This document shows positions 1,922 to 20,447 of a stretch of 64,000 nucleotides of DNA, piece by piece. The position numbers were made by a program, and so were the translations under genes. Where the stretch lies: contig NZ_JACHHW010000004.1 of assembly GCF_014202945.1 (NCBI RefSeq), positions 124,001-188,000 of the forward strand, written 5' to 3'. Every line of letters begins with the position of its first letter. Within the stretch, counting starts at the first letter, position 1. The notes under the pieces were generated by a model. That model was given only the letters and a program-made list of their open reading frames with translations, was not told the origin of the DNA and did no database searches. Origin of the DNA: Zhongshania antarctica (GTDB lineage Bacteria > Pseudomonadota > Gammaproteobacteria > Pseudomonadales > Spongiibacteraceae).

Positions 1922-1954
1922 TGCTGAGACTGTCCTTTAATTGAATCTGCTGAG

Positions 1955-2560
1955 CTAGGGATTGTCGCGTTTTTCATAATGAATAAATAGGCCTTCGGCG
2001 GTACTTAGTAGCTCTTCTACGCAATAGCATTTACCTTCGATGTGAATTTGCCGCTCATCGATCTTAATAATTTGGCAGCTAAAGTGCAGGGGTTTGAAGA
2101 GTGGGGTGGGCTTGAGGTAGTTAACTCGTAGGCTCGCAGTAAAGCCGGGGGTGCCGTTGGCAATACCACAATACGCTAGTACTTGGTCGTATACCCCGCT
2201 GATAATGCCGCCATGCACGCAATTGGGTGGGCCTTGATGAATAAGGCCAAATTCGCCCTCGGCGACCACCGTATCGTCGACGCTATAAATGTTAAGCTTG
2301 GCCGCCATCGGGTTGAAGTAACCGCTAAACGGGCTACACGGCAGAATTTTACGTAGATCATTACCGTAATCGGGGTCGTAGAATTCTAACATTTTGCGAT
2401 TGCTGAGCTTCATCATTTTTTGATTTAGCTGCCGTAATGTCGATTCAATCTCGGCCAGTTCACTGCTGGTGCCGCCCAGGGTTTGGCTCGCTTCTATGCT
2501 TATGCTGAGCTGCTCGATGATCCCTTTTAATTGTTGGCGCTGTGATTCGCTTACCGGCAT
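1955..2560 (-). CDS. PaaI-type hotdog-fold thioesterase
   Basis: A 201-residue protein from ATG 2560; an in-frame TTG six bases earlier is a weaker alternative. The N-terminal 60 residues look helical. The C-terminal half carries a hotdog domain with VHGGIISGVYDQ near residue 118, the HGG signature of the PaaI/4HBT family, which usually hydrolyses acyl-CoA thioesters in the cytoplasm. The N-terminal extension is longer than in compact PaaI proteins of about 140 residues. It lies upstream of the TonB receptor gene in the same direction. The substrate is unknown; the family call is fairly firm and a catabolic role is only an inference. Confidence 0.75.
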   Translation of the reverse strand: MPVSESQRQQLKGIIEQLSISIEASQTLGGTSSELAEIESTLRQLNQKMMKLSNRKMLEFYDPDYGNDLRKILPCSPFSGYFNPMAAKLNIYSVDDTVVAEGEFGLIHQGPPNCVHGGIISGVYDQVLAYCGIANGTPGFTASLRVNYLKPTPLFKPLHFSCQIIKIDERQIHIEGKCYCVEELLSTAEGLFIHYEKRDNP

Positions 2561-2796
2561 CGACAAATTTGCTCGCGAGTGAATTATTAAGCGCCTGAGT
2601 GTAATAGCCCTTAAGGCGATTGGAAAGCGCAGGGCCGTCGCAAGGGCTAAAAAATCGGGATTACCGCTGTCGTCAGCGTCAAAGGTCGCTCACTTCTCAT
2701 ACCTAAGCAGGAAAGCGCTGATTGGGATATCCTAACAAGCTTGGATGTGATTGATATCTGTTTGATCATTAATGTTGTTTTAGCGAAATTGGCAAT

Positions 2797-4269
2797 ATGT
2801 GTACAAAGTGTCCGTCTACTCTATTACTGCTTTTTTTCTTGGTTGCGGCAACCGAGAGCCAGGCTCATTCCTTTGGTGTTGTTTATACCTTGCCATTACC
2901 GTTCTGGCTGTATGCCTGGGGCGCGGTGGCCGCCTTAGTCACGTCTTTTTTGGTTTTAATTTTTGTTGACCGAGATCGGCTGCTAACTCGCGAGGGGCGC
3001 GTTTGCGATATCAGCGACACGACCATTATCAAGCTCGTTAAGCGCTGGCAATTGCTGAAATTGTTGAAACTACTTAGTCTTGGCAGTTTGCTATTTTGTA
3101 TTGCAACGGGCTTTTGGGGCGTTCGCAATCCCTATGGCAATTTCAATATGACGTTTTTTTGGATTGTTTTTGTTTTGGGCTTTAGCTACGTAACGGTAGT
3201 GTTTGGCAATCTTTACGCAGTAATAAATCCTTGGCAATTCATGATCGACATTCTCGCTCGGGTCAGGCCCAGCTTGCTGCGCGGCTGCGTGCGCTATCCG
3301 AGTTTCTTGGCGTTTTGGCCCGCACTGATTCTCTATATTGGGTTTATTTGGTTTGAGTTGTTTGCTCAAAGTGGGCCATCTGCGCTGGCGGTGCTATTAA
3401 CAGGCTATACCGCACTAAATATTCTTGGGGTGGCCTTAATCGGCCGTCACAATTGGTTTGAGTATTGTGAGTTTTTTGGCGTGTTCTTTAGGCTGCTTGC
3501 GGTCATGGCGCCAATTGATTACAAGCCGAGTGATACGCACGGCGGGGGCGGGCATTTACGTCTGCGGATGCCCTTTAGTGGCGTGCTAGCGGAGCCACCA
3601 CAGCAGCTAAGTTTATTGGTTTTTGTTTTGTTTATGTTGTCTTCAACAGCCTTTGACGGCCTTCACGAAACAGTGGTGTGGAAAAAATTATTCTGGCTGG
3701 ATTTTTACCACGGCTTTTTACAATACTGGACTGACACTAATCCATTTGTCGCTTTTGCAGCAATGTCGCGTCTCTACAGCTATTGGCAAGGTTTGTGTTT
3801 GCTGTTGTCACCATTTTTATATTTATTGGTGTTTGCCAGTTTTATTGCAGCGGGCAAGTTCATTACTAAATCGCCGGTGCCAGTCAAGGTCCTGCTGCTT
3901 AGGTTTAGCTATTCTTTGCTGCCCATAGCACTGGTCTACCATGTCGCCCATTACTACACCTTGATTCAAACTCAGGGCATTAAAATTGTTAGTTTGGTGT
4001 CGGACCCCTTTGGCTGGGGTAGTAATTGGTTTGGCACCGCAAACTGGCTGCAGCGCGTTTTTATTCCCGATACTTCCACAACATGGCATGTCCAGCTGGC
4101 GTTAATTATTGCGGGGCATATTGTCAGTGTTTACGTTTCGCATGTGCTTGCATTGCGCAGCTTTGTAACCTCGCGTAATGCGACGCTGAGTCAGTTGCCT
4201 TTACTGGTGCTGATGCTCGTGTTTACGGTCAGTGGTTTGTGGATATTGTCCCAGCCGATTGGTAGCTAA
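2797..4269 (+). CDS. Polytopic inner membrane protein with AHSFG N-terminal motif
   Basis: A 490-residue, strongly hydrophobic protein. An N-terminal signal-like segment ends at about residue 23, followed by AHSFGVVYTLPLPFWLYAW and about ten further membrane spans. A short loop with many Gly and His residues (THGGGGH near residue 250) could bind metal. I recognise the overall pattern (an AH-FG-Y-LPLP-LY start followed by many spans) from a family of uncharacterised bacterial membrane proteins, some of which carry the database name fenitrothion hydrolase; that name could not be checked here and should not be taken as function. The start at ATG 2797 has no clear ribosome site. It converges on the lipoprotein gene at 4333. 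Confidence 0.7.
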   Translation: MCTKCPSTLLLLFFLVAATESQAHSFGVVYTLPLPFWLYAWGAVAALVTSFLVLIFVDRDRLLTREGRVCDISDTTIIKLVKRWQLLKLLKLLSLGSLLFCIATGFWGVRNPYGNFNMTFFWIVFVLGFSYVTVVFGNLYAVINPWQFMIDILARVRPSLLRGCVRYPSFLAFWPALILYIGFIWFELFAQSGPSALAVLLTGYTALNILGVALIGRHNWFEYCEFFGVFFRLLAVMAPIDYKPSDTHGGGGHLRLRMPFSGVLAEPPQQLSLLVFVLFMLSSTAFDGLHETVVWKKLFWLDFYHGFLQYWTDTNPFVAFAAMSRLYSYWQGLCLLLSPFLYLLVFASFIAAGKFITKSPVPVKVLLLRFSYSLLPIALVYHVAHYYTLIQTQGIKIVSLVSDPFGWGSNWFGTANWLQRVFIPDTSTTWHVQLALIIAGHIVSVYVSHVLALRSFVTSRNATLSQLPLLVLMLVFTVSGLWILSQPIGS

Positions 4270-4284
4270 GTTTTGCACTCGTCA

Positions 4285-4308
4285 TAAAAAAGCCCGCAAT
4301 TGCGGGCT
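4285..4308 (-). terminator. Rho-independent terminator of the M19-like lipoprotein gene
   Basis: An 8-bp stem (AGCCCGCA/TGCGGGCT) with a two-base loop is followed on the reverse strand by six T residues. It lies 25 bases past the end of the minus-strand lipoprotein gene. On the plus strand there is no T run, so termination is mainly for the minus strand. Confidence 0.75.
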
Positions 4309-4332
4309 GGATAAAGCGCTACATTAAGGGGT

Positions 4333-7023
4333 TTACGGTGCGTAGGCACCTATTGGCGGAGCGGGGCGCAATATGGCTGGCGCCGTGGCTGGGATGTCCT
4401 TTAAGCCATTGGCTTGGATTGCTGCGCTGGCCAATTCGGTGCGCTTCCACGTTTGCAAAAACACTTCAGCTGAGTTGAATAAATGCCGCACTTGGCTGGC
4501 GGCATTGGGGCTGTCGAGGACGATTTCTTTCACAAAGTCACTGAGCATGCCGTAGTGGGCATTGCCGTCAAGATCTTCATGCCACGTACGGCTAACATTG
4601 CCGTCAGCATCGACGCTATTGGGCTGCTCAAAGCTAACGACTGAGGCATTGTCGAATTCAGTCATGGTATTGAACGGTGCGCCGCTAAACAGTGTGAAGG
4701 GGTATTCAATGGGGTTTGCCGGGTTGTTGCGCGGCCCCGTTTGGGCTGATAGGCCATTGGTGTCGGTACCGTAGCCAAAGCCAAACAGCAGCGAAGGCTT
4801 GCCCGCCGTGGCGCGTTTAGTCATTGCGTTGGCGTAAATGCCCACCGTTTCGTTCATGTCTTCCCTAAAGCCCTTGCTGGAGCCATTGCTGGGGTACAGT
4901 ATGCCGCCATTCGCGATGAGGCGAGTGGCTTGATCAATAGTGGTGCCGCCAAACGTGCCGTGAGTAGACACGAATGGGTAAACGGGGTTTTGTGCTTCCG
5001 CTAATTCTAGGGCTTGGGTTTTCATTCCCATTTCCATGTGATCCCAGTCAAAGATAAAGCCCATTTCCATCATTTTACCGTAGGTGTATAAGCCCGCAGG
5101 CGTCATCCAGCGGGCATTACATTGGCGAACATCGGCGGGGTAGCAGGGCGTTGTTCCACCAGAGCGGCCATCTTGCCCAGTTGGTATGCAGGCGGGCTGA
5201 GGCAGGTAGCTTTGGGTGCTACCGCCAGTGCTGCCCCAGAGATAGCCAGTAAACCCAGCTGTTTTGCCTTCTTCTGGGCAATTGTAGGTCGTCCACCATT
5301 CGCCAGTAGCCAGCTCGGTAGTGGGTAGATTGCTGACTAATTCGGTGAACTGCGCTTCATTTGGTTGGCCACTAAATAAACTGGTGAGTCCTGCGAGGTC
5401 TCCAGACGGTATGCCGCCGCTGTTTTCACGAGTGCCTAGGTTTAAAATTAAGCCGTCAAATATGCCGTTGCCGCCAAAGGCATTGTCAAATTCGTGAATG
5501 GAAATAATTTGCCGTACGCCCCAGTCGTGAACCCGCTGCATTTGCGTAACGATGGAGTTGGGCTTGCCTTCTTCCACGGTGCATTCATAGCTGTTTTCTG
5601 GAAAGCCGCTGCCGTCTTCTTCATGGGGCCGCTGCTGGCGGAGGGGGTTAAATTTAAGTTTACAGTCGAATAAATTAGAAATTTCTATGCCGAGGACCAC
5701 GGCAATTTTACCGTCTTCAATGACCGCGCGAGCTTCATCGGACGTATGCACGATTTGGAAAAAGCCTTTGCCGGGACCACCGTATTGGGCGTCGATATAA
5801 TTTTCCATGGCGTACATGGTGCCAGCTTGGCGGCCAGCGTTATTCATTGAATTGCAATCTTGAGTGAGGTCGCCAGAGACATTGCGCTGTAATTCACAGA
5901 GGGTTTCATTGTCGACTAAATCATTGACGATAACGCGCAAACCGCCGGCCCAAGCGCGCTCCAACCATTTCCAGTAAATCGCCTCGTGAATTAAATTGTC
6001 GCGCTTTGGCCATTCGCTAAACGTTGGCCAGCCATCAGTAGCGTGACCATTGGGATTCATGCTGAATAGCCCGCCGACGACGTCGCGGCGGCCATCGTCA
6101 CCGTGGTCTACAGCGCAATTGCCCAGTGCTTGTTCTACACCAAATTTATGGAAGGGTTTGCCCCAGTGAGCGCCGCCCAGAAATTCAGTGGCACTAATAT
6201 GTACGTGAACATCGGCGTGGCCGAGTACCGTACCGTCGGGCTGGGTGCCTTTAAATGGTTGGCCGCTGAAATTGCTCTGTGCTTCGGGGAACGTTTCGCA
6301 ATTTGCTGCCGCTTCAAAAATGAAGGCTTCGTTGGCGGGCGCGCTACCGGGGGCGACGGTTTGCACATTGCCGGTGTCGTCAATCGCCAAGTTCCGATTT
6401 AGTGTGGTGGCGCTGATTGTAAAGGTGTCGGCCTTGATCGCGGGGTCGACAAAGCCGTGCCAATTTGTCACTTGTTCTGGGCTGGGTTCTACATGGTAAG
6501 CAGGTGTTTCTGGGTAGCTAGTGGTATCGCCGCTGGCCAAAATCCGCCATTCGGCACTGTCATTTGCACTGGCGCTAGGCAGATTGGTTAAGCCCGGCGC
6601 GCTGCCTGCCGCCATTAGCTGCCGACTGCTGTTATAGAACATATAGCTGCCCAGCGCGGTCGGTTTTAGGTAAAACCCTTCAGCGCTAGCGCTGTCGGTA
6701 GCCGTGGCGCTGTAATTACTTCCGTCAGCGACTAAATATTTGCCGTTGCCGGCGGCTTTTACTACCCAGCAGGCGTTGCTCATTTGATATCGGCTTAACC
6801 GCGGGTCAAGTGGTGGGTCAGTTTCGTCGTTGTCTTGGTCGTTACTGCAGCCGGGGTCAGCGCTGTCAATGAGGGTGTCTTGGTCATTGTCTAGGCCGTC
6901 GCTGCATTGAGGGCTGGGCGTTGTCGGCGTGGAAGGCCGGCTGCTACTCGAGGAGCTTCCACCGCAAGCTGCAAGGGAGCTAATTATAATGGCTGCAAGC
7001 AGCGCCTTAGGTAATTGATGCAT
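4333..7023 (-). CDS. Secreted lipoprotein, membrane-dipeptidase/amidohydrolase-like
   Basis: An 896-residue protein from ATG 7023 with GGAG eight bases upstream. The lipobox SLAAC puts the acylated Cys near residue 20, followed by a Gly/Ser linker and an acidic motif CSDGLDNDQDTLIDSADPGC (residues about 40-59) of calcium-binding style. Residues 75-240 form a beta-rich domain. From about residue 268 a metal-hydrolase TIM-barrel seems likely: HADVHVH (first two metal His), VLGIEISN (Glu), SIHEFDNAFGG and VSTHGTFGG (later His), a layout resembling M19 membrane dipeptidases. The family is therefore divergent M19 or amidohydrolase; the substrate is unknown. It is exported and probably anchored to the outer membrane. 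A perfect palindrome lies 40 bases upstream. Confidence 0.72.
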   Translation of the reverse strand: MHQLPKALLAAIIISSLAACGGSSSSSSRPSTPTTPSPQCSDGLDNDQDTLIDSADPGCSNDQDNDETDPPLDPRLSRYQMSNACWVVKAAGNGKYLVADGSNYSATATDSASAEGFYLKPTALGSYMFYNSSRQLMAAGSAPGLTNLPSASANDSAEWRILASGDTTSYPETPAYHVEPSPEQVTNWHGFVDPAIKADTFTISATTLNRNLAIDDTGNVQTVAPGSAPANEAFIFEAAANCETFPEAQSNFSGQPFKGTQPDGTVLGHADVHVHISATEFLGGAHWGKPFHKFGVEQALGNCAVDHGDDGRRDVVGGLFSMNPNGHATDGWPTFSEWPKRDNLIHEAIYWKWLERAWAGGLRVIVNDLVDNETLCELQRNVSGDLTQDCNSMNNAGRQAGTMYAMENYIDAQYGGPGKGFFQIVHTSDEARAVIEDGKIAVVLGIEISNLFDCKLKFNPLRQQRPHEEDGSGFPENSYECTVEEGKPNSIVTQMQRVHDWGVRQIISIHEFDNAFGGNGIFDGLILNLGTRENSGGIPSGDLAGLTSLFSGQPNEAQFTELVSNLPTTELATGEWWTTYNCPEEGKTAGFTGYLWGSTGGSTQSYLPQPACIPTGQDGRSGGTTPCYPADVRQCNARWMTPAGLYTYGKMMEMGFIFDWDHMEMGMKTQALELAEAQNPVYPFVSTHGTFGGTTIDQATRLIANGGILYPSNGSSKGFREDMNETVGIYANAMTKRATAGKPSLLFGFGYGTDTNGLSAQTGPRNNPANPIEYPFTLFSGAPFNTMTEFDNASVVSFEQPNSVDADGNVSRTWHEDLDGNAHYGMLSDFVKEIVLDSPNAASQVRHLFNSAEVFLQTWKRTELASAAIQANGLKDIPATAPAILRPAPPIGAYAP

Positions 7024-7062
7024 TGCAAAACTCCGGTAAAAGCTGCGATTTTGGCTAACTCT

Positions 7063-7086
7063 CGATGTTACAGTACTGTAACATCG
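7063..7086. promoter_or_regulatory. Perfect 24-bp palindrome, probable operator
   Basis: The 12-base arm CGATGTTACAGT is followed immediately by its exact reverse complement, centred on 7074/7075 with core TTACAGTACTGTAA. It lies 40-63 bases upstream of the start codon of the secreted M19-like lipoprotein. Size, perfect symmetry and place fit the binding site of a dimeric repressor such as a TetR-family protein. No regulator gene lies next to it in the window. It has no T tail, so a terminator is unlikely. Confidence 0.55.
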
Positions 7087-7223
7087 AATGCGATGAAGGA
7101 ATCTGACTGCTTGATACAGAGCAATGTGTCATCGTGAGAAAAGGGTGGCGATTTGTCTACTCGGTTTTTCCGTAATTGACAGTGCTGGATTGCGGTAGTG
7201 GGAGAGTGCTGATTTGGAGGAAT

Positions 7224-7254
7224 AAAAAAACCGCCAAAAGGAGGCGGTTTTTTT
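7224..7254. terminator. Bidirectional terminator downstream of the split tRNA-Leu
   Basis: A 12-bp stem (AAAAAAACCGCC/GGCGGTTTTTTT) around a seven-base loop. On the minus strand it follows the tRNA-Leu 3' half that ends at 7311, so it probably was the terminator of that tRNA gene before it was interrupted. Confidence 0.75.
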
Positions 7255-7310
7255 ATTGCAGAGATACATGCTCTCCGCTAGCTGCAAGTAATTGATACCG
7301 CAGCGTATTT

Positions 7311-7375
7311 TGGTACCAGTGGGCGGACTCGAACCGCCACTCCCGAGGGAACCAGATTTTGAATCTAGCGCGTCT
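7311..7375 (-). pseudogene. 3' half of a split tRNA-Leu(CAA) gene
   Basis: Read on the minus strand, this holds the anticodon arm with CAA, the variable arm (stem CCC/GGG), the T arm with GGTTCGAGTCC, the acceptor 3' strand CACTGGT and an encoded ACCA end at 7311. The part beyond the lower D stem is missing: above 7375 the sequence no longer matches a tRNA. The matching 5' half lies at 12866-12904. Joined at position 7356/12866, the two give an 85-nt tRNA with all stems paired, the same length as the intact tRNA-Leu at 12664-12748. Confidence 0.85.
7357..7375. repeat. Left direct repeat (att-like core) of the tRNA-Leu island
   Basis: The 19 bases cover the anticodon loop, the 5' anticodon stem and part of the D stem of tRNA-Leu on the minus strand. 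18 of 19 bases match the copy at 12866-12884; the mismatch is C at 7371 against T at 12880. Confidence 0.75.
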
Positions 7376-7609
7376 TTCAGTGTAATTGTAAGTTGTTGAA
7401 ATATAAGTGTTTTTATCTGTTTTAGTTGTTTGATAATTGCTCTATGACAAATGCGACTATTGTCCGTCACGAGTTTGCGATGGAAAGGGAGTGCAAAACT
7501 TGGCGTTGTTAGATTGCTGTTATGAACACGGAGAGCTCCCTAGCTCTATAGATAATGAGCAACGCAACAAGTAGTCTATTTGCCATAACATATTTGAAAC
7601 GGTGCTTTT

Positions 7610-8043
7610 TTGCTCGACCCCGGGCGAGAATGGCAAAGAGGTTATGTTCACGGAATGTGTCTGGCTCTAGTGTCACAAAAGCGGTCATACCGATCTGTCA
7701 CCGAGGACGAGGCAGTATTGGCGCTGAATCAATTTGCCGAGCGTTGGGATGACCAGTATCCGCAGATCAGTAAATCGTGGCGCGCGCACTGGCAGAACCT
7801 AATTACCCTGCTGACATTAGGAAAGTCATCTATACAACCAACGCCATCGAGTCGTTGAACAGCGTTATCCGCAAGGCGATCAAAAAGCGCAAGTTGTTTC
7901 CTACGGACGACGCGGCGAAGAAAGTTATTTATCTGGCGATCCAGAATGCTTCAAAAAAGTGGACAATGCCGATCAGAAATTGGACGCCAGCACTCAATCG
8001 ATTTATAATTGATATTGCAGACCGCTTAGCGGATTATATTTAA
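7610..8043 (+). pseudogene. IS256-family (mutator-type) transposase, C-terminal remnant
   Basis: Two reading frames make up the conserved C-terminus of an IS256-type DDE transposase. The first (7610 to about 7805) carries AERWDDQYPQISKSWRAHW, the second (about 7800-8043) YPADIRKVIYTTNAIESLNS, then KKWTMPIRNW and ALNRF. TTNAIES is the strong family signature. A frameshift near 7800 separates them, and the N-terminal two thirds with the first catalytic residues are missing. It cannot encode an active enzyme. It is a scar of a past insertion inside the tRNA-Leu island. No terminal inverted repeats were recognised. Confidence 0.8.
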
Positions 8044-8094
8044 CCTTGGCAGTTTAACAGAATTATTTACAGACTCCAATAAAGAGGTTTAGGG

Positions 8095-9141
8095 ATGTAT
8101 AGAGGCATTGGTCTTACTGTTTTATTTTTGTTTGTTAGCATGATTAGCTTTGTCTCAGTCCCCGCATTAGCCGCTGATGAGCAATATCCGCACATTTATG
8201 CCTTGGGAACCATGACCAATACCGACTCTGATCGGAATGTTGAGTCTACAAGTAACGGTTGGCAATTAGGGTTTGGTTTTCCATTAACCCAGCGCCTCTA
8301 TATCGAGGGTTTATATTTTGATAACATCTTTGAAACTGGCGACAACAACGGCAGTGATTTTTATCAGGCTGGCGGTGGTGTAGACCTTCAATACGGTTTT
8401 GGCGATAGAGAGCAATTCACTCCGTTTATTTTAGCGGGGATTGGCGGTGCCGAGAACGACGTCATTCCAGATTCACTTGATGAAAACTCGTTTTATTGGA
8501 ATGTAGGTGTTGGCTTTGTTGGACGCATCTTTAATTTGCAATGGCTTCGGTATCGCGGCGAAGCGCGCTATTTTCAAGATGATTATCTTGATGGACGTAC
8601 CGATATACGTTTTGGCTTGGGTCTAGAGGTTGCGTTGGGCACCTTTCAGCAGATAAAAGAAGTTGTTGTAGAGAAGGTGGTTTACACGCAGGTTCAACCA
8701 AAGGATTCTGACGGTGATCATGTTGTTGATCAATATGACGAATGCCCAAATACGCTGCCCGGTGTGCGTGTAGATGGGCGTGGTTGCGTTATTGAACAAC
8801 AAATCATCAATATCGCAAACATCACTTTCGAAACTGGCTCTGCTCAGTTAACGCAGGTTGGCGAGAATACGTTGATGTCGTCTGTGTCATTTTTAAAGAG
8901 TCAACGTAACGTCAATGTTGAAATAGCCGGGCATACGGATAGCGTCGGCTCGGATAGCCTTAATTTAAATTTATCACAACAGCGTGCTATGGCTGTGAAA
9001 CGATTTTTAAGTGTAAATGGAATAGAGTCTGATCGTTTAGTCGCACGGGGGTATGGTGAATCTTCGCCTCTAGCGAGTAATGATACGCCTACTGGGCGGG
9101 CAACAAATCGACGAGTTGAGTTTCGTTTAACTACTCGGTAA
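8095..9141 (+). CDS. OmpA-family outer membrane protein with TSP3 linker
   Basis: A 348-residue protein with AGAGG-like ribosome site before ATG 8095. A signal peptide ends near residue 27 (ALAA). Residues 28-185 look like an eight-stranded outer-membrane barrel (alternating aromatic strands, LYIEGLYFDN, GVGFVGR). A thrombospondin type 3 calcium motif DSDGDHVVDQYDECP follows near residues 204-218. The C-terminal OmpA domain (about 240-348) has the peptidoglycan-binding motif AGHTDSVGSDSLNLNLSQQRA and ends in NRRVEF. It likely links the outer membrane to the cell wall. It sits 28 bases before the TSP3 lipoprotein gene, which suggests one operon and a shared surface role. Confidence 0.85.
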   Translation: MYRGIGLTVLFLFVSMISFVSVPALAADEQYPHIYALGTMTNTDSDRNVESTSNGWQLGFGFPLTQRLYIEGLYFDNIFETGDNNGSDFYQAGGGVDLQYGFGDREQFTPFILAGIGGAENDVIPDSLDENSFYWNVGVGFVGRIFNLQWLRYRGEARYFQDDYLDGRTDIRFGLGLEVALGTFQQIKEVVVEKVVYTQVQPKDSDGDHVVDQYDECPNTLPGVRVDGRGCVIEQQIINIANITFETGSAQLTQVGENTLMSSVSFLKSQRNVNVEIAGHTDSVGSDSLNLNLSQQRAMAVKRFLSVNGIESDRLVARGYGESSPLASNDTPTGRATNRRVEFRLTTR

Positions 9142-9169
9142 TAAATAATATTGTTTGAAGGGGCAGGGC

Positions 9170-11647
9170 ATGCAAATGCAGAAATTGGCTATAGCATTAC
9201 TAATAGTAATGGCCGCATCGTTCCAGTTGACTGGGTGTAAGTCAGCTAATGATGGTAATGCTGGTGCTGGGGAAGCAGATGCTCCTAGCACTTTGGTAGA
9301 TACCGATGGCGACGGCGTTTTGGACTCTGTCGATAATTGTATTGATGTAGCCAATGTCGATCAGCGCAATACAGATGGCGATGCACAGGGCGATGTTTGT
9401 GATGCCGATAACGACAATGACGGCTTCTTAGATGCAGTGGATAATTGCCCAATAGTGGCTAATCCCGGGCAAGCGGACTCTGACGATGATGGTGTTGGGG
9501 ATGTCTGCGAAGACAGCGATAACGACTCTATCATTGATGCAAACGATAACTGTATTGCCGTATCAAATATTGATCAGCGCGACACTGACTCAGATGGTAT
9601 TGGTGATGCCTGTGACGTTGATGATGACGGCGACGGTATAAACGATGGTGCAGACAATTGCCGATTAGTTACTAACGTTGGACAAGAAGATGCTGATGCC
9701 GATGGTGTTGGTGATGCTTGTGAAGACGATACTGACGGTGACACAGTCTTAAACAACGTTGATAACTGCCCGTTAATTCCAAATAGCGATCAAGCAGATG
9801 CCAATAATAACGGTACTGGTGATGTTTGCGAAGATGGCGACTCTGATGGTGTCGTTGATCCAATTGATAACTGCCCCACAATTTCAAACGCTAGCCAAGT
9901 AGACACTGATGGCGATGGTCTAGGCGATGCCTGTGATAGCGACGACGATAATGACACGGTGCTAGATGGTGCAGATAACTGCCCGTTAGTGGGCAACCAA
10001 AACCAGCTGGACTCAGATGGTGACGGTACCGGTGACGCATGTGAGTCAGATGGCGATAACGATGGCGTATTAAATGGCCTAGATAACTGTCCGTTTGTGG
10101 CAAACACAAACCAAGCTGACGTAGATGGCGATGGTATTGGTGATGCTTGTGATGATTCTGACGCTGATGGTGTTCTAGACACTGTTGATAACTGCCGTGT
10201 TACTGCAAACTCTGGTCAAGAAGATCTAGATGCCGATCGTATGGGTGATGTTTGTGACGCTGATACTGATGGTGATGGCGTTGAAGATAAAAATGCTGCT
10301 GGAGACCCACTAGATAATTGCCCATTGGTTGTAAATACCGACCAAACCGATTCCGACCTTGATGGTATTGGTGATGCTTGTCAGGATGATGCTGATGGCG
10401 ACTTAATTGCGGATACAAACGATAACTGCCCTAATACGCCTAATTTTGATCAAGCAGATACCGTTAGTGTTAATGGTATTGGCGATGCTTGTGATGATTC
10501 GGATACCGATGGTCTAGTTGATAATGCTGATAACTGTCCATTAGTTGCTAATCCAAGCCAGGTAGACACTGATGGTGATGGAGATGGTGATGCATGTGAT
10601 ACCGACGATGATGGAGATGGTGTTTTAGACGGGCCAGATAACTGTCCTTTAGTGGCTAACGCGGATCAAAATGACGCCGGTAATAATGGTGTAGGTGATG
10701 CTTGTGAAGCTGATTTCGATAACGACAACGTTTTAGACGATGTTGATAATTGCCCAGCTCTTGCAAATACGGATCAAGCTGATTTCGATGGCGACGGTAT
10801 TGGTGACGTTTGTGACGACGACATCGACGGTGACACTGTACCTAACGATACTGATAACTGCCCACTACCTAACCCTGGTCAGGAAACTGACGATAGCGGA
10901 AATGCGGTAGCGTGTAACACGACAGTGATTGCTGAAAACTACGAATGTACTGCTGGTGCGCCTGCAGGCTCAACGGTCGCAGCTCTCGAAACTGGCTTGG
11001 TTTGTACTATTACTGACTTGACTGCGCCGCTGTTAGACGGTTGTTCGGTAGTGTCAGCAGATAATGCGATTGATTTAGATTTAGCCTCATTTGCGATCGT
11101 CAATTACGACGTTGGTATACTTGATGCGATACTACTTGGTGATGACCTTTTGGGGGTGACAGGTTCTCAAACCTTGCAAGTTACCATGCCGGAAGCCATT
11201 CCTGCTGGTCGGGTCGCAGGTTTCATTATAAGCATACCAAACGGATCTGTTGACTTAAGTATTGCGCGTCGGATTAGCGTTAAAACTTATTTGGGTGACG
11301 AGTTTGTTGGTGGCGCCGGTGTTGGTGAAAACACCGAGATTTCACTGCTCGGTCAGGGCGTTATTCGTACTAATGACGCCTTGTTTCCAGCGTTTGATCC
11401 ACAAGATCCTGCGTCTTCTTTTAACCCTGATGCGTTTAGCTTCCCTGACCCTGCAGCGTCAAATAGCGAAGTTAAGTATTTACTTGGGTTCTTCTCTCAA
11501 AATGCGTTTGATCGTATTGAGTTAGTGATAGATGCTGGGTTGCTTACAGTTGATTTAACTGAAGCGGTGAAAGTATATGAAACCTGTGTAGATGCAGCGC
11601 CTACTGGTGCGATTGATCCGGCTCTGCCAGGAAGCGGTGGCGGTTGA
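9170..11647 (+). CDS. Thrombospondin type 3 repeat lipoprotein (15 repeats)
   Basis: An 825-residue protein. The start is set at ATG 9170 because GAAGGGG stands just upstream; an in-frame TTG at 9155 is less likely. The lipobox QLTGC puts the lipidated Cys at residue 23. Residues of about 45-590 hold fifteen units of the DxDxDGxxDxxDNCPxxxNxxQ type, the acidic calcium-binding TSP3 repeat. The remaining 235 residues form a globular domain I do not recognise, with four Cys and a Gly-rich tail (GSGGG). It likely makes a rigid, calcium-dependent rod on the cell surface. The gene follows the OmpA-family gene and ends at a terminator. Repeat number may vary between strains. Confidence 0.85.
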   Translation: MQMQKLAIALLIVMAASFQLTGCKSANDGNAGAGEADAPSTLVDTDGDGVLDSVDNCIDVANVDQRNTDGDAQGDVCDADNDNDGFLDAVDNCPIVANPGQADSDDDGVGDVCEDSDNDSIIDANDNCIAVSNIDQRDTDSDGIGDACDVDDDGDGINDGADNCRLVTNVGQEDADADGVGDACEDDTDGDTVLNNVDNCPLIPNSDQADANNNGTGDVCEDGDSDGVVDPIDNCPTISNASQVDTDGDGLGDACDSDDDNDTVLDGADNCPLVGNQNQLDSDGDGTGDACESDGDNDGVLNGLDNCPFVANTNQADVDGDGIGDACDDSDADGVLDTVDNCRVTANSGQEDLDADRMGDVCDADTDGDGVEDKNAAGDPLDNCPLVVNTDQTDSDLDGIGDACQDDADGDLIADTNDNCPNTPNFDQADTVSVNGIGDACDDSDTDGLVDNADNCPLVANPSQVDTDGDGDGDACDTDDDGDGVLDGPDNCPLVANADQNDAGNNGVGDACEADFDNDNVLDDVDNCPALANTDQADFDGDGIGDVCDDDIDGDTVPNDTDNCPLPNPGQETDDSGNAVACNTTVIAENYECTAGAPAGSTVAALETGLVCTITDLTAPLLDGCSVVSADNAIDLDLASFAIVNYDVGILDAILLGDDLLGVTGSQTLQVTMPEAIPAGRVAGFIISIPNGSVDLSIARRISVKTYLGDEFVGGAGVGENTEISLLGQGVIRTNDALFPAFDPQDPASSFNPDAFSFPDPAASNSEVKYLLGFFSQNAFDRIELVIDAGLLTVDLTEAVKVYETCVDAAPTGAIDPALPGSGGG

Positions 11648-11678
11648 GTGCGGACTGCGATGAGTAATCACTGATTGT

Positions 11679-11706
11679 AAAACCCCGGTTTTCCGGGGTT
11701 TTTTTT
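11679..11706 (+). terminator. Rho-independent terminator after the TSP3 lipoprotein gene
   Basis: An 8-bp stem AACCCCGG/CCGGGGTT with a four-base loop and a run of eight T residues, 32 bases past the stop codon. Confidence 0.85.
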
Positions 11707-11890
11707 GCCTAAAATTCCTAATAGTTTGATTTTATTGGCTTTATAATGTTGAGCGTTAAACAGCCTTAGATGTTTTGAGATTTGCTTAATCTAAAAACAC
11801 GTGCAAGACGTAATAAAATCTCTATAGTTGTCACCGTCAACATTGCCCGGCAGGCACTGCCGCGGCCATCATGCACATGAGGTCTCTACC

Positions 11891-11980
11891 ATGCCGCAAT
11901 ATACAGCCCCGCTCCGCGATATTAATTTCGTGTTAAAAGATGTACTTAAGAGCGATCTGTTGATTTGCACTGAAATTTAA
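11891..11980 (+). pseudogene. N-terminal fragment of an acyl-CoA dehydrogenase gene
   Basis: A 29-codon frame begins MPQYTAPLRDINFVLKDVL and then ends. This start is characteristic of a large acyl-CoA dehydrogenase group (MPxYxAPLRDxxFVLxE). A GAGGT ribosome site stands 8 bases upstream of ATG 11891, so translation signals remain, but the homology breaks off after about 20 residues. The remainder of the gene is not in the window. It looks like a truncated gene at an old recombination junction inside the island. Confidence 0.6.
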
Positions 11981-12067
11981 ACCAATTATCGCCACAAATT
12001 GCAGAATGATATAACCCACTTCAACTCTCAGAAGGGACGGGGTGTTCAATGACTTAAGGTTATAACA

Positions 12068-12379
12068 GTGGGTCACCTTTCCGTACAACTGGTGGGGCAA
12101 TTTGGGATGCAAATCTACAGGGATCACGGTAACCTGTCCGATCTCGAAGCTGCTGCGGCTGAAGTTGACGCGGTTCTTTATTGGGCCTATGCAGAAATTA
12201 CCTTCGAGCATCATAGGGAGGGGCTTGTCAGTGATGCGGCTTGGGAAGAGTTTAGAGTTGAGATTCCTTTGTTCTACAGTATGCCCGCTTTGAGAGCCGT
12301 ATATGAGGCGTGGTATCTACAGGCTCCCAGCGAGTTTACTCTAGCGATAGACGAAATCGTGGATACGCTTGATAAATGA
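12068..12379 (+). CDS. Small protein of unknown function
   Basis: A 103-residue frame from GTG 12068, with AAGG 8 bases upstream. Its sequence has an alpha-helical look, acidic, with LYWAYAEITFEHH and FYSMPALRAVYEAWYLQAP. No domain was recognised and no signal or membrane span is evident. The beginning (VQLVGQFGMQIYRDHGNLSDLEAAAAEVDAVLYWAYAEI) has a coherent amphipathic pattern, which supports coding. The N-terminus may have been lost with the neighbouring recombination, because a stop codon stands in frame at 12050. Confidence 0.45.
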   Translation: MGHLSVQLVGQFGMQIYRDHGNLSDLEAAAAEVDAVLYWAYAEITFEHHREGLVSDAAWEEFRVEIPLFYSMPALRAVYEAWYLQAPSEFTLAIDEIVDTLDK

Positions 12380-12624
12380 GCACGTCATATAACTAGTCAA
12401 GGCATCCGGACGTTAAAACCGCTGCGCGTGCTTGAAGAGTTAAGGCTTTAGATAAAACTACCGGCTTCCATCCGATTGGGAATTTTTGACTGTCTGCTTT
12501 TTACCAAAAGTAGCCTTCGGGCGTAAGTGACATTCACTGGTGTGTGTTTTAGGTAGGCTTGAGCGTTGTGCGCAGGTTTTAATACAAGGCTGCTGTTTCG
12601 GGCTTATTTCAGCGTGCTGGAAAC

Positions 12625-12656
12625 AAAAAAGCCCCGCTCACTGAGCAGGGCTTTTT
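12625..12656 (-). terminator. Terminator of the intact tRNA-Leu
   Basis: A stem of A/T and GC pairs (AAAAAGCCC... GGGCTTTTT) with one internal mismatch lies 8 bases beyond the 3' end of tRNA-Leu on the minus strand. Its T run is on both strands. Confidence 0.7.
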
Positions 12657-12663
12657 AAATTAG

Positions 12664-12748
12664 TGGTACCGATGGGCGGACTCGAACCGCCACGCTGTTA
12701 GGCACCTGATTTTGAATCAGGCGTGTCTACCAATTCCACCACACCGGC
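12664..12748 (-). tRNA. tRNA-Leu (CAA anticodon)
   Basis: 85 nt on the minus strand from G1 at 12748 to the encoded CCA end at 12664. The acceptor stem GCCGGTG pairs with CATCGGT, the D arm holds AATTGGTAGAC, the anticodon loop is TTCAAAA (CAA, reads UUG), a long variable arm and the T loop GGTTCGAGTCC are present. It lies inside the split-tRNA island and may replace the interrupted tRNA-Leu(CAA) whose halves flank the island. Confidence 0.95.
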
Positions 12749-12840
12749 ACTGCAAGAACATACTACAAACTATGACAACCTATGACAAGCATAAAATGGG
12801 TTGTGGGAAAGTTTAATCCCTTATCAATCAATAGCTTACA

Positions 12841-12861
12841 TGGTTTAATTGGTACACGCTA
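12841..12861 (+). repeat. Degenerate inverted copy of the tRNA-Leu 5' region
   Basis: The plus strand reads TGGTTTAATTGGTACACGCTA, which matches the D-arm region of the adjacent tRNA-Leu half (TGGTGAAATTGGTAGACACGCTA, read on the minus strand at 12875-12897) with two changes and a two-base gap. The two copies form an imperfect hairpin around the break in the tRNA. Confidence 0.5.
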
Positions 12862-12865
12862 CCGC

Positions 12866-12884
12866 TTTTGAATCTAGCGTGTCT
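12866..12884. repeat. Right direct repeat (att-like core) of the tRNA-Leu island
   Basis: Partner of the repeat at 7357-7375, 18 of 19 bases identical, again covering the anticodon loop and D-stem side of tRNA-Leu. Confidence 0.75.
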
Positions 12885-12904
12885 ACCAATTTCACCACAC
12901 TGGC
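12866..12904 (-). pseudogene. 5' half of the split tRNA-Leu(CAA) gene
   Basis: On the minus strand this reads the acceptor 5' strand GCCAGTG, the D arm with AATTGGTAGAC and the anticodon stem-loop up to TTCAAAA. After 12866 the expected 3' anticodon stem TCTGG is replaced by GCGGT. GCCAGTG pairs fully (one G-T) with CACTGGT of the 3' half at 7311-7356, not with the intact tRNA nearby, so the two halves belong together. Confidence 0.85.
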
Positions 12905-13073
12905 ATGTGATTGGGGCGCGATTATAGCAAGCTTTTCTCTGGGGTCAATCGACCATGACAGTTTTCTTAATATATCTGCAATTTAAGCGCTAAAACTCGG
13001 GAATTGCTTGCCTCAGTGGAGTCTTTTGACAAATTCCGCTAATCTTGCGCCCTTCCAAATGAAAGCAGACATT

Positions 13074-15614
<2,541 letters not shown>

Positions 15615-15681
15615 CCATGGTTTTATGGCATTCTTAGTAATGTCGGAAGGCAGTGTTGTTGGCGCAAATTGAGGAATTCTT

Positions 15682-16218
15682 ATGTTGTATGAACTGGGTG
15701 ATCGACGCGTCACCCTTGAGGGCGGCGAGCATTTTATTGCCGATAACGCGACGGTTATAGGTTCGGTCACGGTGGGTGATCGGGCGAGTATTTGGTTTAA
15801 CGTGGTTATTCGCGGTGATGTAGACGATATCGTGATTGGTGCGCGCAGCAATATTCAAGACGCATCCGTGCTGCATACCGATGCGGGTATCCCTATGCAT
15901 ATCGGTGAGGATGTCACTGTGGGGCATAAGGTGATGCTGCACGGCTGCACCATTGGCGCAGGTAGTTTGATCGGTATTAATTCAGTGGTGCTCAACGGTG
16001 CCAAGATTGGTCGGGGCTGTTTAATCGGCGCCAACTCACTGGTAACTGAAGGTATGGAGATTCCTGATGGTGCTCTGGTAATGGGTGCTCCAGCAAAAAT
16101 TAAGCGCATGCTTAGCCCTGAAGAACAGGCGGCACTGCTGATGTCTGCGGCGCATTACGTGGAAAATGGTCAGCGCTTTATTGCTGAGCTTCGTCCCCAG
16201 GTGATGCCAGAGAAATGA
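15682..16218 (+). CDS. Gamma-class carbonic anhydrase-like protein (YrdA type)
   Basis: A 178-residue left-handed beta-helix protein of hexapeptide repeats. VIRGDVDDIVIGARSNIQDASVLHTD and VGHKVMLHGCTIG hold the three His ligands expected of the gamma carbonic anhydrase family, and VMGAPAKIKR ends the helix. The YrdA group binds metal, but its carbonic anhydrase activity is usually weak or unproven. GAGGAATTCTT precedes ATG 15682. Its stop overlaps the start of the DUF1289 gene by four bases. Confidence 0.9.
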   Translation: MLYELGDRRVTLEGGEHFIADNATVIGSVTVGDRASIWFNVVIRGDVDDIVIGARSNIQDASVLHTDAGIPMHIGEDVTVGHKVMLHGCTIGAGSLIGINSVVLNGAKIGRGCLIGANSLVTEGMEIPDGALVMGAPAKIKRMLSPEEQAALLMSAAHYVENGQRFIAELRPQVMPEK

Positions 16219-16409
16219 GCGTAGAGATAAAAGAGAAGCCGGTGGCGTCGCCGTGTGTGTCGGTCTGCGCCTTGGATGAGTACGATATCTGCACAGGCTG
16301 CTATCGCAGCCTGAATGAGATTAGTGATTGGTCTGCGTTAAGCAATATGGCGAAGCGCGAGGTGATTTTTCTTGCTAATCAGCGCTGCCGCAGCAAATAT
16401 GACCTTTAA
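16215..16409 (+). CDS. DUF1289 protein
   Basis: A 64-residue protein with SPCVSVCALDEYDICTGCYRS, the four-Cys pattern (C-x3-C, C-x2-C) of DUF1289, and the following ISDW segment. The Cys cluster suggests a metal or iron-sulfur site, not proven. It is translationally coupled to the carbonic anhydrase-like gene (ATGA overlap). Confidence 0.88.
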   Translation: MSVEIKEKPVASPCVSVCALDEYDICTGCYRSLNEISDWSALSNMAKREVIFLANQRCRSKYDL

Positions 16410-17674
16410 TGGCGTGTTTTGGGCTTAATATACGCGCGGACTGACTGAATAAGATTGCCTTTCATTTCGATAATTTCAAAGCGGTAGCGGCCTATTGATA
16501 CGCCGACTGAGGCTTCTGGAAATGACTCCAGTTTTTCGAGTAAAAGGCCATTGAGGGTCTTGGGGCCGTCGGTGGGCAATTCCCATTTCATAATCTTGTT
16601 AATGTCGCGAACGGTGGTGGTGCCATCAACTAAATAGCTGCCGTCGGCCTGATGAATTATGTCTTCAGTATCGGTGCTTAAATTAGAGGTAAACTCGCCA
16701 ACAATCTCTTCCAGCAAGTCTTCAAGGGTGACTATGCCCTGCATCACGCCATATTCATCGACCACAATACCTAGCCGGCGCTTTTGTTTCTGGAAGTTAA
16801 ATAGCTGGGTGTTGAGCGGTGTGCCTTCAGGAATAAAATAGGGGTCGCGTATGGCCTGCAGGAGTGCGTCGCGCTGCACGCGGCCCTGTTCATCGACGCT
16901 ATTGATAATGTCGCGCTGATGGAGAATGCCAACAATATTGTCGATGTCGTTTTGGTAAACGGGAATGCGGGTGAACTCGGCGTCGCGCAATTTGCGGATG
17001 ATGGTGTCGGTGTTGGCGTCGATATCAATGCCGAACACTTCATTGCGCGGAATCATAATATCGTCGACGGTGATCTGCTCAAGATCGAGGATATTCATCA
17101 GCATCCCCTTGTGGTGTTTGGGGATCAAGTGCCCGGCTTCACCGACGATGGTGCGCAATTCCTCTAAGCCAATATGTTCTGAACCGTCGTTTTTCTCGAT
17201 GCGCGTTAGCCGCAAGACAAAATGGGTAACGTGGCTAACCATCCAAATGACCGGAAATAGCAGCGATTTTAGCGGTAGCAAGACATGGCTGACCGTGTAG
17301 GCAACGGCTTCTGATTTATAGGCGGCAATGGTTTTGGGGATAATTTCAGCAAATATTAAAAATACCAGGGTCAGCAATATTGATGCTGGCACCACCGCGT
17401 TGTCGCCATACATGCGAATGGCAAGAATGGTGGCGATCGACGCAGCTAAATTATTAACCAGATTATTGCCGATCAAGATCGTGCTAATAAGGCTATCGGG
17501 TTCTTCCAGTAGTTTGGATGCGCGCTTTGCGCCGCGATGGCCTGATTTGGCACGATGCCGCAGGCGATATCTGTTGAGGGACATCATTCCGGTTTCGGAG
17601 CCGGAAAAAAATCCGGACAGAATGATAAGTGCAGCTAATATGCCAAAGAGAAGACCCAGCGGTGCCTCGTTCAA
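16406..17674 (-). CDS. CorC/HlyC-type membrane protein with CBS domains (CorB/YfjD)
   Basis: A 422-residue protein with an N-terminal DUF21 membrane region (residues 1-185, about four spans), a CBS pair (about 195-320, with IPRNEVFGIDIDANTD and TRIPVYQNDIDNIVG) and a CorC_HlyC domain at the end. Members export Mg2+ or Co2+ or influence their transport. It converges on the DUF1289 gene with a 4-base overlap at the stop codons. The neighbouring ypjD and ffh are the usual partners. Confidence 0.92.
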   Translation of the reverse strand: MNEAPLGLLFGILAALIILSGFFSGSETGMMSLNRYRLRHRAKSGHRGAKRASKLLEEPDSLISTILIGNNLVNNLAASIATILAIRMYGDNAVVPASILLTLVFLIFAEIIPKTIAAYKSEAVAYTVSHVLLPLKSLLFPVIWMVSHVTHFVLRLTRIEKNDGSEHIGLEELRTIVGEAGHLIPKHHKGMLMNILDLEQITVDDIMIPRNEVFGIDIDANTDTIIRKLRDAEFTRIPVYQNDIDNIVGILHQRDIINSVDEQGRVQRDALLQAIRDPYFIPEGTPLNTQLFNFQKQKRRLGIVVDEYGVMQGIVTLEDLLEEIVGEFTSNLSTDTEDIIHQADGSYLVDGTTTVRDINKIMKWELPTDGPKTLNGLLLEKLESFPEASVGVSIGRYRFEIIEMKGNLIQSVRAYIKPKTRH

Positions 17675-17758
17675 AAAGCCCAGAACCCCTTAATATGAAA
17701 TGAGTGCCAATCTTGAAGAAAAATGTGGGGCACGACAAGCGTAATCTCGGCTTCGGTA

Positions 17759-18544
17759 TTAATGAATAATTAATGATAGGGCAATTTTGGTGCCAAGGTA
17801 GCCCAGTAATAAACAGGCAAAGGCCCACAGCGTCCAGCGTATGGCGATATTGCCTCGCCAGCCTAAGGCCGCTCGGCCGCATAATAAAATTGCTAGCAGC
17901 ACCCAAGATAATACTGAAAACACGGTTTTGTGGAGCAGGTGCTGAGCGAGAATGTCGTCTACATAGACGGCGCCAGTCGTAATCGCCAAACTCAGCAGAA
18001 CGAATCCAGCCCAGATTAACTCAAAAAGCATCGCCTCCATGGTTTGAAGTGGCGGCAAAATACTCGGCAGGCCCTTGAGTTGGTGGTCGCGCAGCATGCG
18101 GTTTTGCAAAGCGAGAACAATGGCCTGCACCGCGGCAATCGTGAGCATGCTGTAGGCGAGTATAGAAAGCAGGATATGGCTTAACACGCCGGGGCTTTGG
18201 TGTTGTAAAAACTGCTGTTTACCTGGAATGAGGAGTTCGGCAGCCAAACTAATGGCAGCGAGCGGATATAGGGCAATTAATAAATTGTGCAGTGGGCGGC
18301 GCAAACTGGCGCTGAGCGTGATGACACAGATTAGCCACGTAATAAGGGATAAAACCTGAATAACGCCGAGGTCCATGCCCGCAGAGGTGGAAATAGCAGT
18401 GAAGGCCGCGAGCGCGTGACAGGCGGTGGCCAGTAAGCCGGGCGCTAGGCTGCGGTAGCTTATGGGGGTGTTAATTAAGCGGTATTGGATGCCCGCGGCA
18501 ACAAGATAGAGCGTGATTGCTGCGATGCTGCTGTATAGATTCAT
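17759..18544 (-). CDS. ypjD: Cytochrome c assembly-like membrane protein YpjD
   Basis: A 261-residue protein of about eight membrane spans, typical of the CcsA/YpjD family that is related to cytochrome c assembly proteins. It lies between ffh (divergent) and the CorB-type gene downstream, the standard neighbourhood of YpjD in gammaproteobacteria. The biochemical role of YpjD is unclear. Confidence 0.88.
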   Translation of the reverse strand: MNLYSSIAAITLYLVAAGIQYRLINTPISYRSLAPGLLATACHALAAFTAISTSAGMDLGVIQVLSLITWLICVITLSASLRRPLHNLLIALYPLAAISLAAELLIPGKQQFLQHQSPGVLSHILLSILAYSMLTIAAVQAIVLALQNRMLRDHQLKGLPSILPPLQTMEAMLFELIWAGFVLLSLAITTGAVYVDDILAQHLLHKTVFSVLSWVLLAILLCGRAALGWRGNIAIRWTLWAFACLLLGYLGTKIALSLIIH

Positions 18545-18747
18545 AGGTTCAGTATGGCCAATATGTCGTTGATGTGTGTACTGAGCGTTGGGTCTGTCTT
18601 GAGACTCGGTTATACTGCTGCGCTATCGTGTAAGCCGGAAGTACACAAGTGGGTAAGATTGTAAGCGGGTTCGCGCAATAATGTCGACTTGAACCACGTT
18701 TTCCCTGAAACCTTCTGCAGAATCAAAGATATTAAGAGAGTTTACGC

Positions 18748-20121
18748 ATGTTTGAGAGCTTAACGGAACGTCTATCGCAGACCCTGCGCCATGTTACTGG
18801 TCAGGCGCGTTTGACCGAAGACAATATTAGCGATGCTATGCGCGATGTACGCATGGCCTTGCTTGAGGCCGATGTCGCGCTGCCAGTAGTAAAAGACTTT
18901 GTTGACGCGGTGCGCGGTCGCGCGGTTGGGCAGGAGGTGAGTAAAAGTCTTAGCCCTGGTCAGATGTTCATTAAAATCGTCCAGCAGGAGCTGGAGCAAA
19001 TTATGGGGCTTAAAAATGAAGCCCTGAATTTGGCGACCCAGCCGCCAGCCGTCATCTTGATGGCGGGCTTGCAGGGTGCAGGTAAAACCACCTCGGTTGC
19101 CAAGCTCGCTAAATTCTTGCAAGAAAAGCACAAGAAAAAAGTGCTTGTGGTTAGTGCGGACATCTACCGGCCTGCGGCAATCAAGCAGCTTGAAACCCTC
19201 GCGGCGGATGTGGGCGCGGGATTCTTCCCCAGTAATCTCGAGCAAAAGCCAGTCGATATTGCTAAAGCGGCTATAGCCGAAGCGAAGCTGCGTTTTTATG
19301 ATGTGCTGATTGTTGATACCGCGGGTCGCCTTCATATCGATACCGATATGATGACTGAAATTAAAGACCTGCATGCGGCGATTAACCCAGTTGAGACCTT
19401 GTTCGTGGTAGATGCCATGACCGGTCAGGATGCGGCCAATACCGCTAAGGCCTTTGGCGAGGCGTTGCCTCTGACGGGTGTGATTCTAACCAAGGCCGAT
19501 GCCGATAGCCGTGGTGGTGCAGCCTTGTCAGTGCGTCATATTACCGGTAAGCCGATTAAGTTTATGGGTGTTGGTGAAAAGACGGATGCACTTGATCCCT
19601 TTTATCCAGACCGTATCGCGTCGCGCATTCTCGGTATGGGCGATATGTTGTCGCTTATTGATGAGGCCGAGTCCAAACTTGATAAAGACAAAGCTGAAAA
19701 ACTCGCCAAAAAGCTTAAAAAGGGTAAAAAATTCGATCTAGAGGATCTGCGTGATCAGCTTCAGCAGATGCAGAACATGGGTGGCATGAAGAGTTTGCTG
19801 GATAAACTGCCGGGCATGGGCAATATGGCGCAAATGGCCCAAAGCCAGATCGACAATAAAATGTTTACCCGCATGGAGGCGCTTATCAACTCCATGACAC
19901 CGGCCGAGCGTCGCAATCCAGATTTGCTCAATGGCTCCCGTAAGCGCCGTATTACTATGGGTTCAGGTACTGAGATTCAGGATTTGAACCGTCTGCTCAA
20001 GCAGCACAAGCAGATGGCTAAAATGATGAAGAAGATGGGGCAAAAGGGCGGAATGACCAATATGATGCGTGGCATGGGTGGAATGATGCCGCCCGGTGGT
20101 GGTCGTTTTCCCGGTATGTGA
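18748..20121 (+). CDS. ffh: Signal recognition particle protein Ffh
   Basis: The SRP GTPase that binds signal sequences on ribosomes and delivers them to FtsY. 457 residues. The N domain, the G domain with GLQGAGKTTSVAKLA, VDTAGRLHID and TKADADSRGGAAL, and a Met-rich M domain (from about residue 325, ending in MMRGMGGMMPPGGG) are all present. AAGAGAG stands upstream of ATG 18748. It is transcribed away from ypjD. Confidence 0.98.
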   Translation: MFESLTERLSQTLRHVTGQARLTEDNISDAMRDVRMALLEADVALPVVKDFVDAVRGRAVGQEVSKSLSPGQMFIKIVQQELEQIMGLKNEALNLATQPPAVILMAGLQGAGKTTSVAKLAKFLQEKHKKKVLVVSADIYRPAAIKQLETLAADVGAGFFPSNLEQKPVDIAKAAIAEAKLRFYDVLIVDTAGRLHIDTDMMTEIKDLHAAINPVETLFVVDAMTGQDAANTAKAFGEALPLTGVILTKADADSRGGAALSVRHITGKPIKFMGVGEKTDALDPFYPDRIASRILGMGDMLSLIDEAESKLDKDKAEKLAKKLKKGKKFDLEDLRDQLQQMQNMGGMKSLLDKLPGMGNMAQMAQSQIDNKMFTRMEALINSMTPAERRNPDLLNGSRKRRITMGSGTEIQDLNRLLKQHKQMAKMMKKMGQKGGMTNMMRGMGGMMPPGGGRFPGM

Positions 20122-20354: not shown

Positions 20355-20403
20355 TCCGCGCCTTTATGGCTTCGGCCAGTAAATGCTTCGAATTTTTCGA
20401 TAA

Positions 20404-20422: not shown

Positions 20423-20447
20423 CCAAATGCTAGGAAATGGAACAAGA

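Follow-up and report, generated by a model that had tools for sequence, protein, structure and literature searches.

What has cut a tRNA-Leu(CAA) gene in two, and which tRNA takes its place? This question is raised by a 64,000-nt stretch of contig NZ_JACHHW010000004.1 from Zhongshania antarctica (positions 124,001 to 188,000, below called the window), in which the two parts of such a gene flank a segment of 5,490 bp (window positions 7376–12865) that holds another, complete tRNA-Leu(CAA). The segment is very probably a small integrative element that was inserted into the anticodon loop by a tyrosine recombinase and brought a whole replacement tRNA with it. The window belongs to an assembly of 3.85 Mb in 26 contigs (G000), which we compared with 17 relatives from the genus, among them G001, G006, G016 and Spongiibacter pelagi KMU-158 (G011). 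An original prediction, made from the letters of the window alone, is partly supported by our analysis; it did not include the attP-like ends, a further case with tandem units, the position of the promoter or a prior description in phages (PMC10865867).

Results and Discussion

The split tRNA gene is real. Its 3' part (7311–7356, minus strand), reaching from the 3' side of the anticodon stem to the CCA end, and its 5' part (12866–12904, minus strand) can be joined via either copy of a direct repeat to give an 85-nt tRNA-Leu(CAA) with all stems present in the drawn version, as had been predicted. The repeat was likewise described correctly, its copies at 7357–7375 (TTTTGAATCTAGCGCGTCT) and 12866–12884 (TTTTGAATCTAGCGTGTCT) being identical in 18 of 19 positions. 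In order to verify a split of this kind it had been proposed to look in close relatives for an uninterrupted tRNA with the stems GCCAGTG/CACTGGT, and such a gene is present in G001, a relative whose flanks are approximately 94% identical. The G001 locus (L034) aligns to window positions 620–7202 (92.8% identity), 7207–7375 (95.9%) and 12866–20827 (94.2%), and the last two alignments overlap in G001 by exactly 19 bp, which is the repeat; G001 thus represents the empty site, and the segment has been either inserted in the lineage of the window or precisely lost from G001. Joined via the right repeat copy, the tRNA of the window is the G001 tRNA in every letter, which identifies the right copy as native and the left one as brought by the element. 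At this left junction (7357–7375) the core TTTTGAATC comes with further homology, and the base that differs is foreign to the host gene. The window also lacks about 1.3 kb that G001 has immediately to the left of the tRNA (L034 6574–7890, between window positions 7202 and 7207).

The complete tRNA-Leu(CAA) inside the segment was confirmed by ARAGORN at 12664–12748 (minus strand). It is the sole tRNA found in the window, and neither junction rebuilds a tRNA, as the original prediction had stated. The further claim that the cell lives on the inner copy agrees with the assembly, as this copy is the only CAA tRNA among all 38 typed tRNA loci (38/38), although this list is without some tRNAs usual in rRNA operons and the assembly or the E limit of 0.01 may miss some. 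The other leucine tRNAs carry the anticodons TAG, TAA, CAG and GAG, one each, of which the tRNA-Leu(TAA) might read UUG. The inner tRNA is 83.5% identical to the G001 tRNA and 86% to that of G006; it keeps TTTTGAATC and has a changed anticodon stem. It is located 117 bp inside the right end of the element.

A second case was found in S. pelagi, where the tRNA is broken at the same bases of the anticodon loop. The native 3' half ends a region of contig C12, whose left flank matches sequence next to the tRNA in 13 of the other 16 relatives' loci, and the 5' half lies beside queA on contig C6 (NZ_JACXLD010000014.1, locus L035); joined, they give an 87-nt tRNA-Leu(CAA) that G016 has, without any difference, as an intact gene. 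On contig C25 (NZ_JACXLD010000031.1, L037) the right end of one unit is followed by the bare core and then by the left end of the next. This unit-to-unit junction shows that at least two units are present in tandem, with a bare core between them as repeated site-specific insertion would leave it; as C6, C12 and C25 are unjoined contigs, the number and order of the units are deduced. The complete tRNA on C6 is located at the right end and on the strand of the broken gene, as in the window, downstream of the same type of native promoter. It is the sole complete tRNA-Leu(CAA) found in S. pelagi and holds a group I intron (RF00028, 66.1 bits, E 6.5e-15; also seen by ARAGORN with introns allowed). 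The intron (L035 1918–2173, minus strand) splits the very anticodon loop that serves as recombination core and might shield the replacement tRNA from recombination.

These data bear on two ways in which the split could have arisen without a site-specific recombinase. The first, already offered with the original prediction, is that adjacent copies of tRNA-Leu(CAA) recombined by homology, for which two tRNAs of the same anticodon lying close together might speak. This proposal did not hold up: a single intact tRNA-Leu(CAA) was found at the fetched locus in all 16 same-genus relatives other than S. pelagi (16/16), the replacement tRNA is just about 84% like the native one, and the ends of the element recur in S. 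pelagi with fixed spacing, leaving a rearrangement very improbable. The second is that a transposase inserted the segment and duplicated its target. A Mutator/IS256-type element, of which a remnant is present at 7822–8040, could for instance have done so, and the direct repeat would fit. Since the repeat copies differ and one of them is non-native, since target base and ends are the same in a second species, and since a bare core separates the S. pelagi units, we consider this hardly credible.

The site-specific insertion that we favour is suggested by the ends of the element. On the left a putative arm-type recombinase site CTATGACAA is found at 7442–7450 (plus strand), 85 nt from the core start as in both S. 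pelagi left ends (85/85/85 nt). On the right two putative arm-type sites of the same sequence (CTATGACAACCTATGACAA, 12770–12788, plus strand) are identical in two S. pelagi right ends, the arm pair CTATGACAACCTATGACAAG being shared without a difference, and the nearer copy precedes the core by 86 nt in the window and by 85 nt in each S. pelagi end. Within the window CTATGACAA occurs four times compared to 0.43 expected, three times at the element ends and once elsewhere (24088). The element ends with CCGC abutting the core (12862–12865, plus strand); TACCGC, from 12860, stands against the TTTTGAATC core in both the window and S. pelagi, and the left ends are otherwise poorly conserved. Between arm sites and core, AATCAATAGCTTA (12826–12838, plus strand) is a candidate site for the integration host factor (IHF), fitting WATCAANNNNTTR, which we take to be the IHF consensus; this consensus has four exact matches on both strands of the window, and the corresponding S. 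pelagi sequence deviates from it by one base. Judged from the sequence, the core, the repeats on both sides and the possible IHF site are together arranged as in a lambda-type attP.

The point of exchange can be narrowed further. The S. pelagi junctions have just TTTTGAATCC in common, and the common part includes TTTTGAA, which is complementary to the seven bases of the anticodon loop. As the differing base is native on the right and foreign on the left, an exchange between flank and element at the left junction would have switched within TTTTGAATCTAGCG, before this base is reached from the left. Anticodon loops are an established crossover site of tyrosine integrases, as described in PMC4383910. 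As a separate observation, the last bases of the element, read on the opposite strand, are similar to a tRNA-Leu 5' half (AATTGGTACACGCTACC vs GGTAGACACGCT). The core would thus lie within an imperfect palindrome at about 12840–12904, which was not clearly seen in S. pelagi.

The position of the replacement tRNA suggests how it may be transcribed. The promoter of the broken gene, TTGACC-16-TATAAT (12921–12948, minus strand), matches the consensus in 11 of 12 positions and is directed towards the replacement tRNA, and an equal match (11/12) lies upstream of the native 5' stub in S. pelagi; when the limit was relaxed to 9, shuffled sequences gave 0.7 and 0.9 matches. A scan detected no terminator on the way from this promoter to the inner tRNA, a weak negative as the same scan overlooked the visible hairpin at 12625–12660 after the inner tRNA of the window. 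A second, weaker match in the window (TTGTCA-17-TAGTAT, 12788–12760, minus strand, 9/12) overlaps the arm repeats, which could therefore also be read as promoter parts for the replacement tRNA instead of recombinase arms. We regard this as improbable, because each of the three left ends also has CTATGACAA, at 85 nt from the core and away from the replacement tRNA, and because no promoter-like match on the minus strand starts in the S. pelagi pair, where the tRNA is more than 100 nt further away.

From these data a model can be proposed in which the element inserts by tyrosine-recombinase chemistry at the core within the anticodon loop. The site of the element would have this core in common with the host gene and lack the remainder of the tRNA, so the host gene would be broken at both ends, for which the element would compensate with its own complete tRNA-Leu(CAA). 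The strong promoter of the broken gene would then read through the 5' stub into the replacement. A circular form of the element would read CTACCGC-TTTTGAA-TCTAGCGCG. The integrase may have been lost or never been present, or might act in trans.

Several observations weigh against this insertion model. No PF00589 match was found in the island of the window, in agreement with the original prediction that the segment has no integrase, and none of the CTATGACAA-plus-core sites found has an integrase inside 1.5 kb. Beyond Xer-like proteins, the best pair of integrases between G000 and S. pelagi shares 36% identity (23 of 25 loci compared), so that no helper integrase was identified. Pattern searches found the ends in only 2 of 390 genomes of the order, and IMG/VR gave no exact match, neither for a 20-mer of the arm pair nor for an arm-plus-core pattern. 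On its other strand CTATGACAA contains TTGTCA, a possible promoter part. Moreover, a complete replacement tRNA is shown for just one S. pelagi unit: the copy on C12 enters the same intron and then runs off the contig end, and the copy on C25 matches only 26 nt of the tRNA end. This C25 stretch (L037 3310–3457) continues with DNA unique in the S. pelagi genome and has the appearance of a broken replacement tRNA.

If the insertion is accepted, the missing integrase can be explained in two ways. One is that the element is the shrunken remnant of an autonomous phage or of an autonomous integrative and conjugative element (ICE), with the integrase deleted after insertion and the relic, like a cis-mobilizable element (CIME), now immobile or rescued by accretion. 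Such decay is a fate described for tRNA islands (PMC7563491, PMC5704250, as far as these accounts go), accretion typically gives tandem arrays, and the segment contains what is left of a transposase as well as a fragment of a broken gene. On the other hand, S. pelagi has at least two units with conserved ends, the part of its unit A seen on C12 has two small open reading frames (ORFs; 208 and 150 aa) and no integrase, and neither phage nor conjugation domains were detected among the ORFs of three element pieces (nine with Pfam results and a tenth protein without matches); to this explanation we give an even chance. The other, possible if somewhat doubtful, is that the units are cassettes lacking an integrase gene, which depend for movement on an integrase from another locus acting in trans. 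Three units with conserved ends, differing cargo and no integrase seen in any of them would fit, as would the 19 PF00589 matches of S. pelagi (six in G000, none in the island). What counts against it is that the two genomes have no candidate helper in common and that CTATGACAA was not found in the 3-kb loci of the non-Xer-like integrases. The PF00589 protein encoded near window position 22.9 kb is probably of the Xer type; it shares 67% identity with a protein that S. pelagi has at the corresponding position.

Taken further, the data would describe a class of integrase-less cassettes in the genus Spongiibacter, with conserved attP-like ends, a cargo that varies and includes surface proteins and lipoproteins, and an own tRNA-Leu(CAA) under the promoter of the broken gene, accumulating in tandem at a single site of the chromosome by a trans-acting integrase in a somewhat integron-like way on a tRNA gene. 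The altered anticodon arm, which concerns the stem in the window and the group I intron in S. pelagi, would then protect the replacement tRNAs against this recombinase. We put this forward tentatively and regard it in its full extent as rather unlikely.

The insert differs from its surroundings, with a GC content of 45.6% compared to 51–56% in the flanking 1-kb bins, which agrees with an insertion. As its cargo, surface genes and remnants of a transposase and a dehydrogenase had been predicted here. A C-terminal remnant of a Mutator/IS256-type transposase (7822–8043, plus strand; PF00872, E 8.4e-10 on 7822–8040) was confirmed, and so were an OmpA-family outer membrane protein of 348 aa (8095–9141, plus strand; PF00691, 6e-22, and PF13505, 6e-8) and a protein of 830 aa with thrombospondin type 3 (TSP_3) repeats (9155–11647, plus strand; PF02412 in 15 stretches), judged by eye a probable lipoprotein. 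The dehydrogenase remnant (11891–11980) did not gain such support, as a Pfam search at E 0.1 gave nothing; it reads MPQYTAPLRDINFVLKDVL.., presumably the N-terminus of an acyl-CoA dehydrogenase. A small ORF of 103 aa (12068–12379, plus strand) has no Pfam match. The three ORFs of the island are thus OmpA, TSP_3 and one without a match, with no phage gene (Pfam; PHROGs unsearched) and no conjugation domain (Pfam only, no wider search) among them. Full-length relatives of the OmpA protein with 52–83% identity occur in nine other genomes of the genus, out of 17 relatives, without a tRNA or CTATGACAA inside 1.5 kb, and G001 has partial matches only; the cargo is therefore drawn from a pool of the genus and not from phage genes. 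Beside the OmpA gene in these loci (L180–L188), DNA matches to the window (8095–11647 for both genes) include the TSP_3 region. In the S. pelagi units the cargo consists of small ORFs including TonB_C and Sel1 proteins.

Wider searches yielded no further clear case. When the right end was searched for with a sequence model, matches at E 0.01 came from 16 of 293 genomes, strong ones only from the window genome (8.5e-28) and S. pelagi (9.9e-32 twice), and the other 14 were partial at E 1.2e-4 or weaker. A relaxed 18-mer found 12 stretches in IMG/VR, none of the 12 with TTTTGAA at +94, unlike the two S. pelagi loci. An arm-pair scan of genome contigs gave 23 stretches, two from S. pelagi and 21 scattered over many phyla, and the scattered ones (L083–L104) likewise have no TTTTGAA at +94. 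BLAST searches of the right end in phages and plasmids matched only tRNA-Leu among the matches listed (20 of 85 and 20 of 127 records). G006 is perhaps an old third case: at L038 8730–8958 a complete tRNA-Leu(CAA) precedes a degenerate remainder of the usual tRNA, its 5' half, next to queA (score 38 compared to a maximum of 33 in 2000 shuffles), with the left flank about 23 kb away. As neither a 3' half nor CTATGACAA on the matching strand is present, we treat it as a lead only; no integrase-like ORF was seen by eye in the 28 kb read, for which no family search was run. In G000 itself a 406-aa integrase adjoins a tRNA-Leu(CAG) on contig C8 (L107 2121–3604), probably another tRNA island.

Conclusion

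The rules by which tRNA islands are usually found presuppose a rebuilt target and an integrase, and since the element violates both, such elements will be missed by rule-based searches. The locus shows the route of whole-gene replacement in a small non-phage element and offers a testable rule, namely a replacement downstream of the stranded promoter with an altered anticodon arm. The element would also be an addiction-like resident, as a cell that lost its tRNA other than by precise excision would have no CAA tRNA left.

Replacement of a whole tRNA is known from the tRNA-dependent lysogeny of actinobacteriophages described by Guerrero-Bustamante and Hatfull in 2024 (PMC10865867), where phage Gaia targets tRNA-Leu-CAA with an 8-bp core. 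As far as that account goes, the short core inside a tRNA gene, the lack of rebuilding at either junction and the carried tRNA of the same isotype are shared with our element. In contrast, those are whole temperate phages of Actinobacteria with their own integrase, and here we find a non-phage, integrase-less segment of 5.5 kb in a gammaproteobacterial host of the order to which Spongiibacter belongs, and a sister species has such units in tandem. Putative arm-type sites, CTATGACAA at 85–86 nt on both sides, flank the core in three units. Being neither a phage nor equipped with an integrase, the element lies outside tRNA-dependent lysogeny as defined in that source. Similarly, Rhizobium prophages like vTRX32-1 (PMC8631192) use a 12-bp motif of tRNA-Leu and bring a whole tRNA-Leu without it, suggested by the authors to prevent super-integration; these are phages of 42–45 kb, whereas the tRNA of the window keeps TTTTGAATC and that of S. 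pelagi is split by an intron. Islander-type tRNA islands share the tRNA target, and anticodon-centred sites are common among them (2083 of 3919 islands, PMC4383910), but as presented there they carry an integrase and restore the tRNA by the attP fragment, and the island of the window would fail both filters. CIMEs (PMC7563491, PMC5704250) are likewise flanked by att sites, have lost their recombination genes and accumulate by tandem accretion, with which the S. pelagi units are compatible. Our element fits their formal description except for descent from an ICE or an integrative and mobilizable element, of which its three ORFs give no sign, and replacement of the target gene is outside the definition given in these sources. 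No integrase-less element replacing a tRNA was found in the open-access literature and listings searched. Thus the principle is known from phages, and its integrase-less, cassette-like and tandem form in this group is new.
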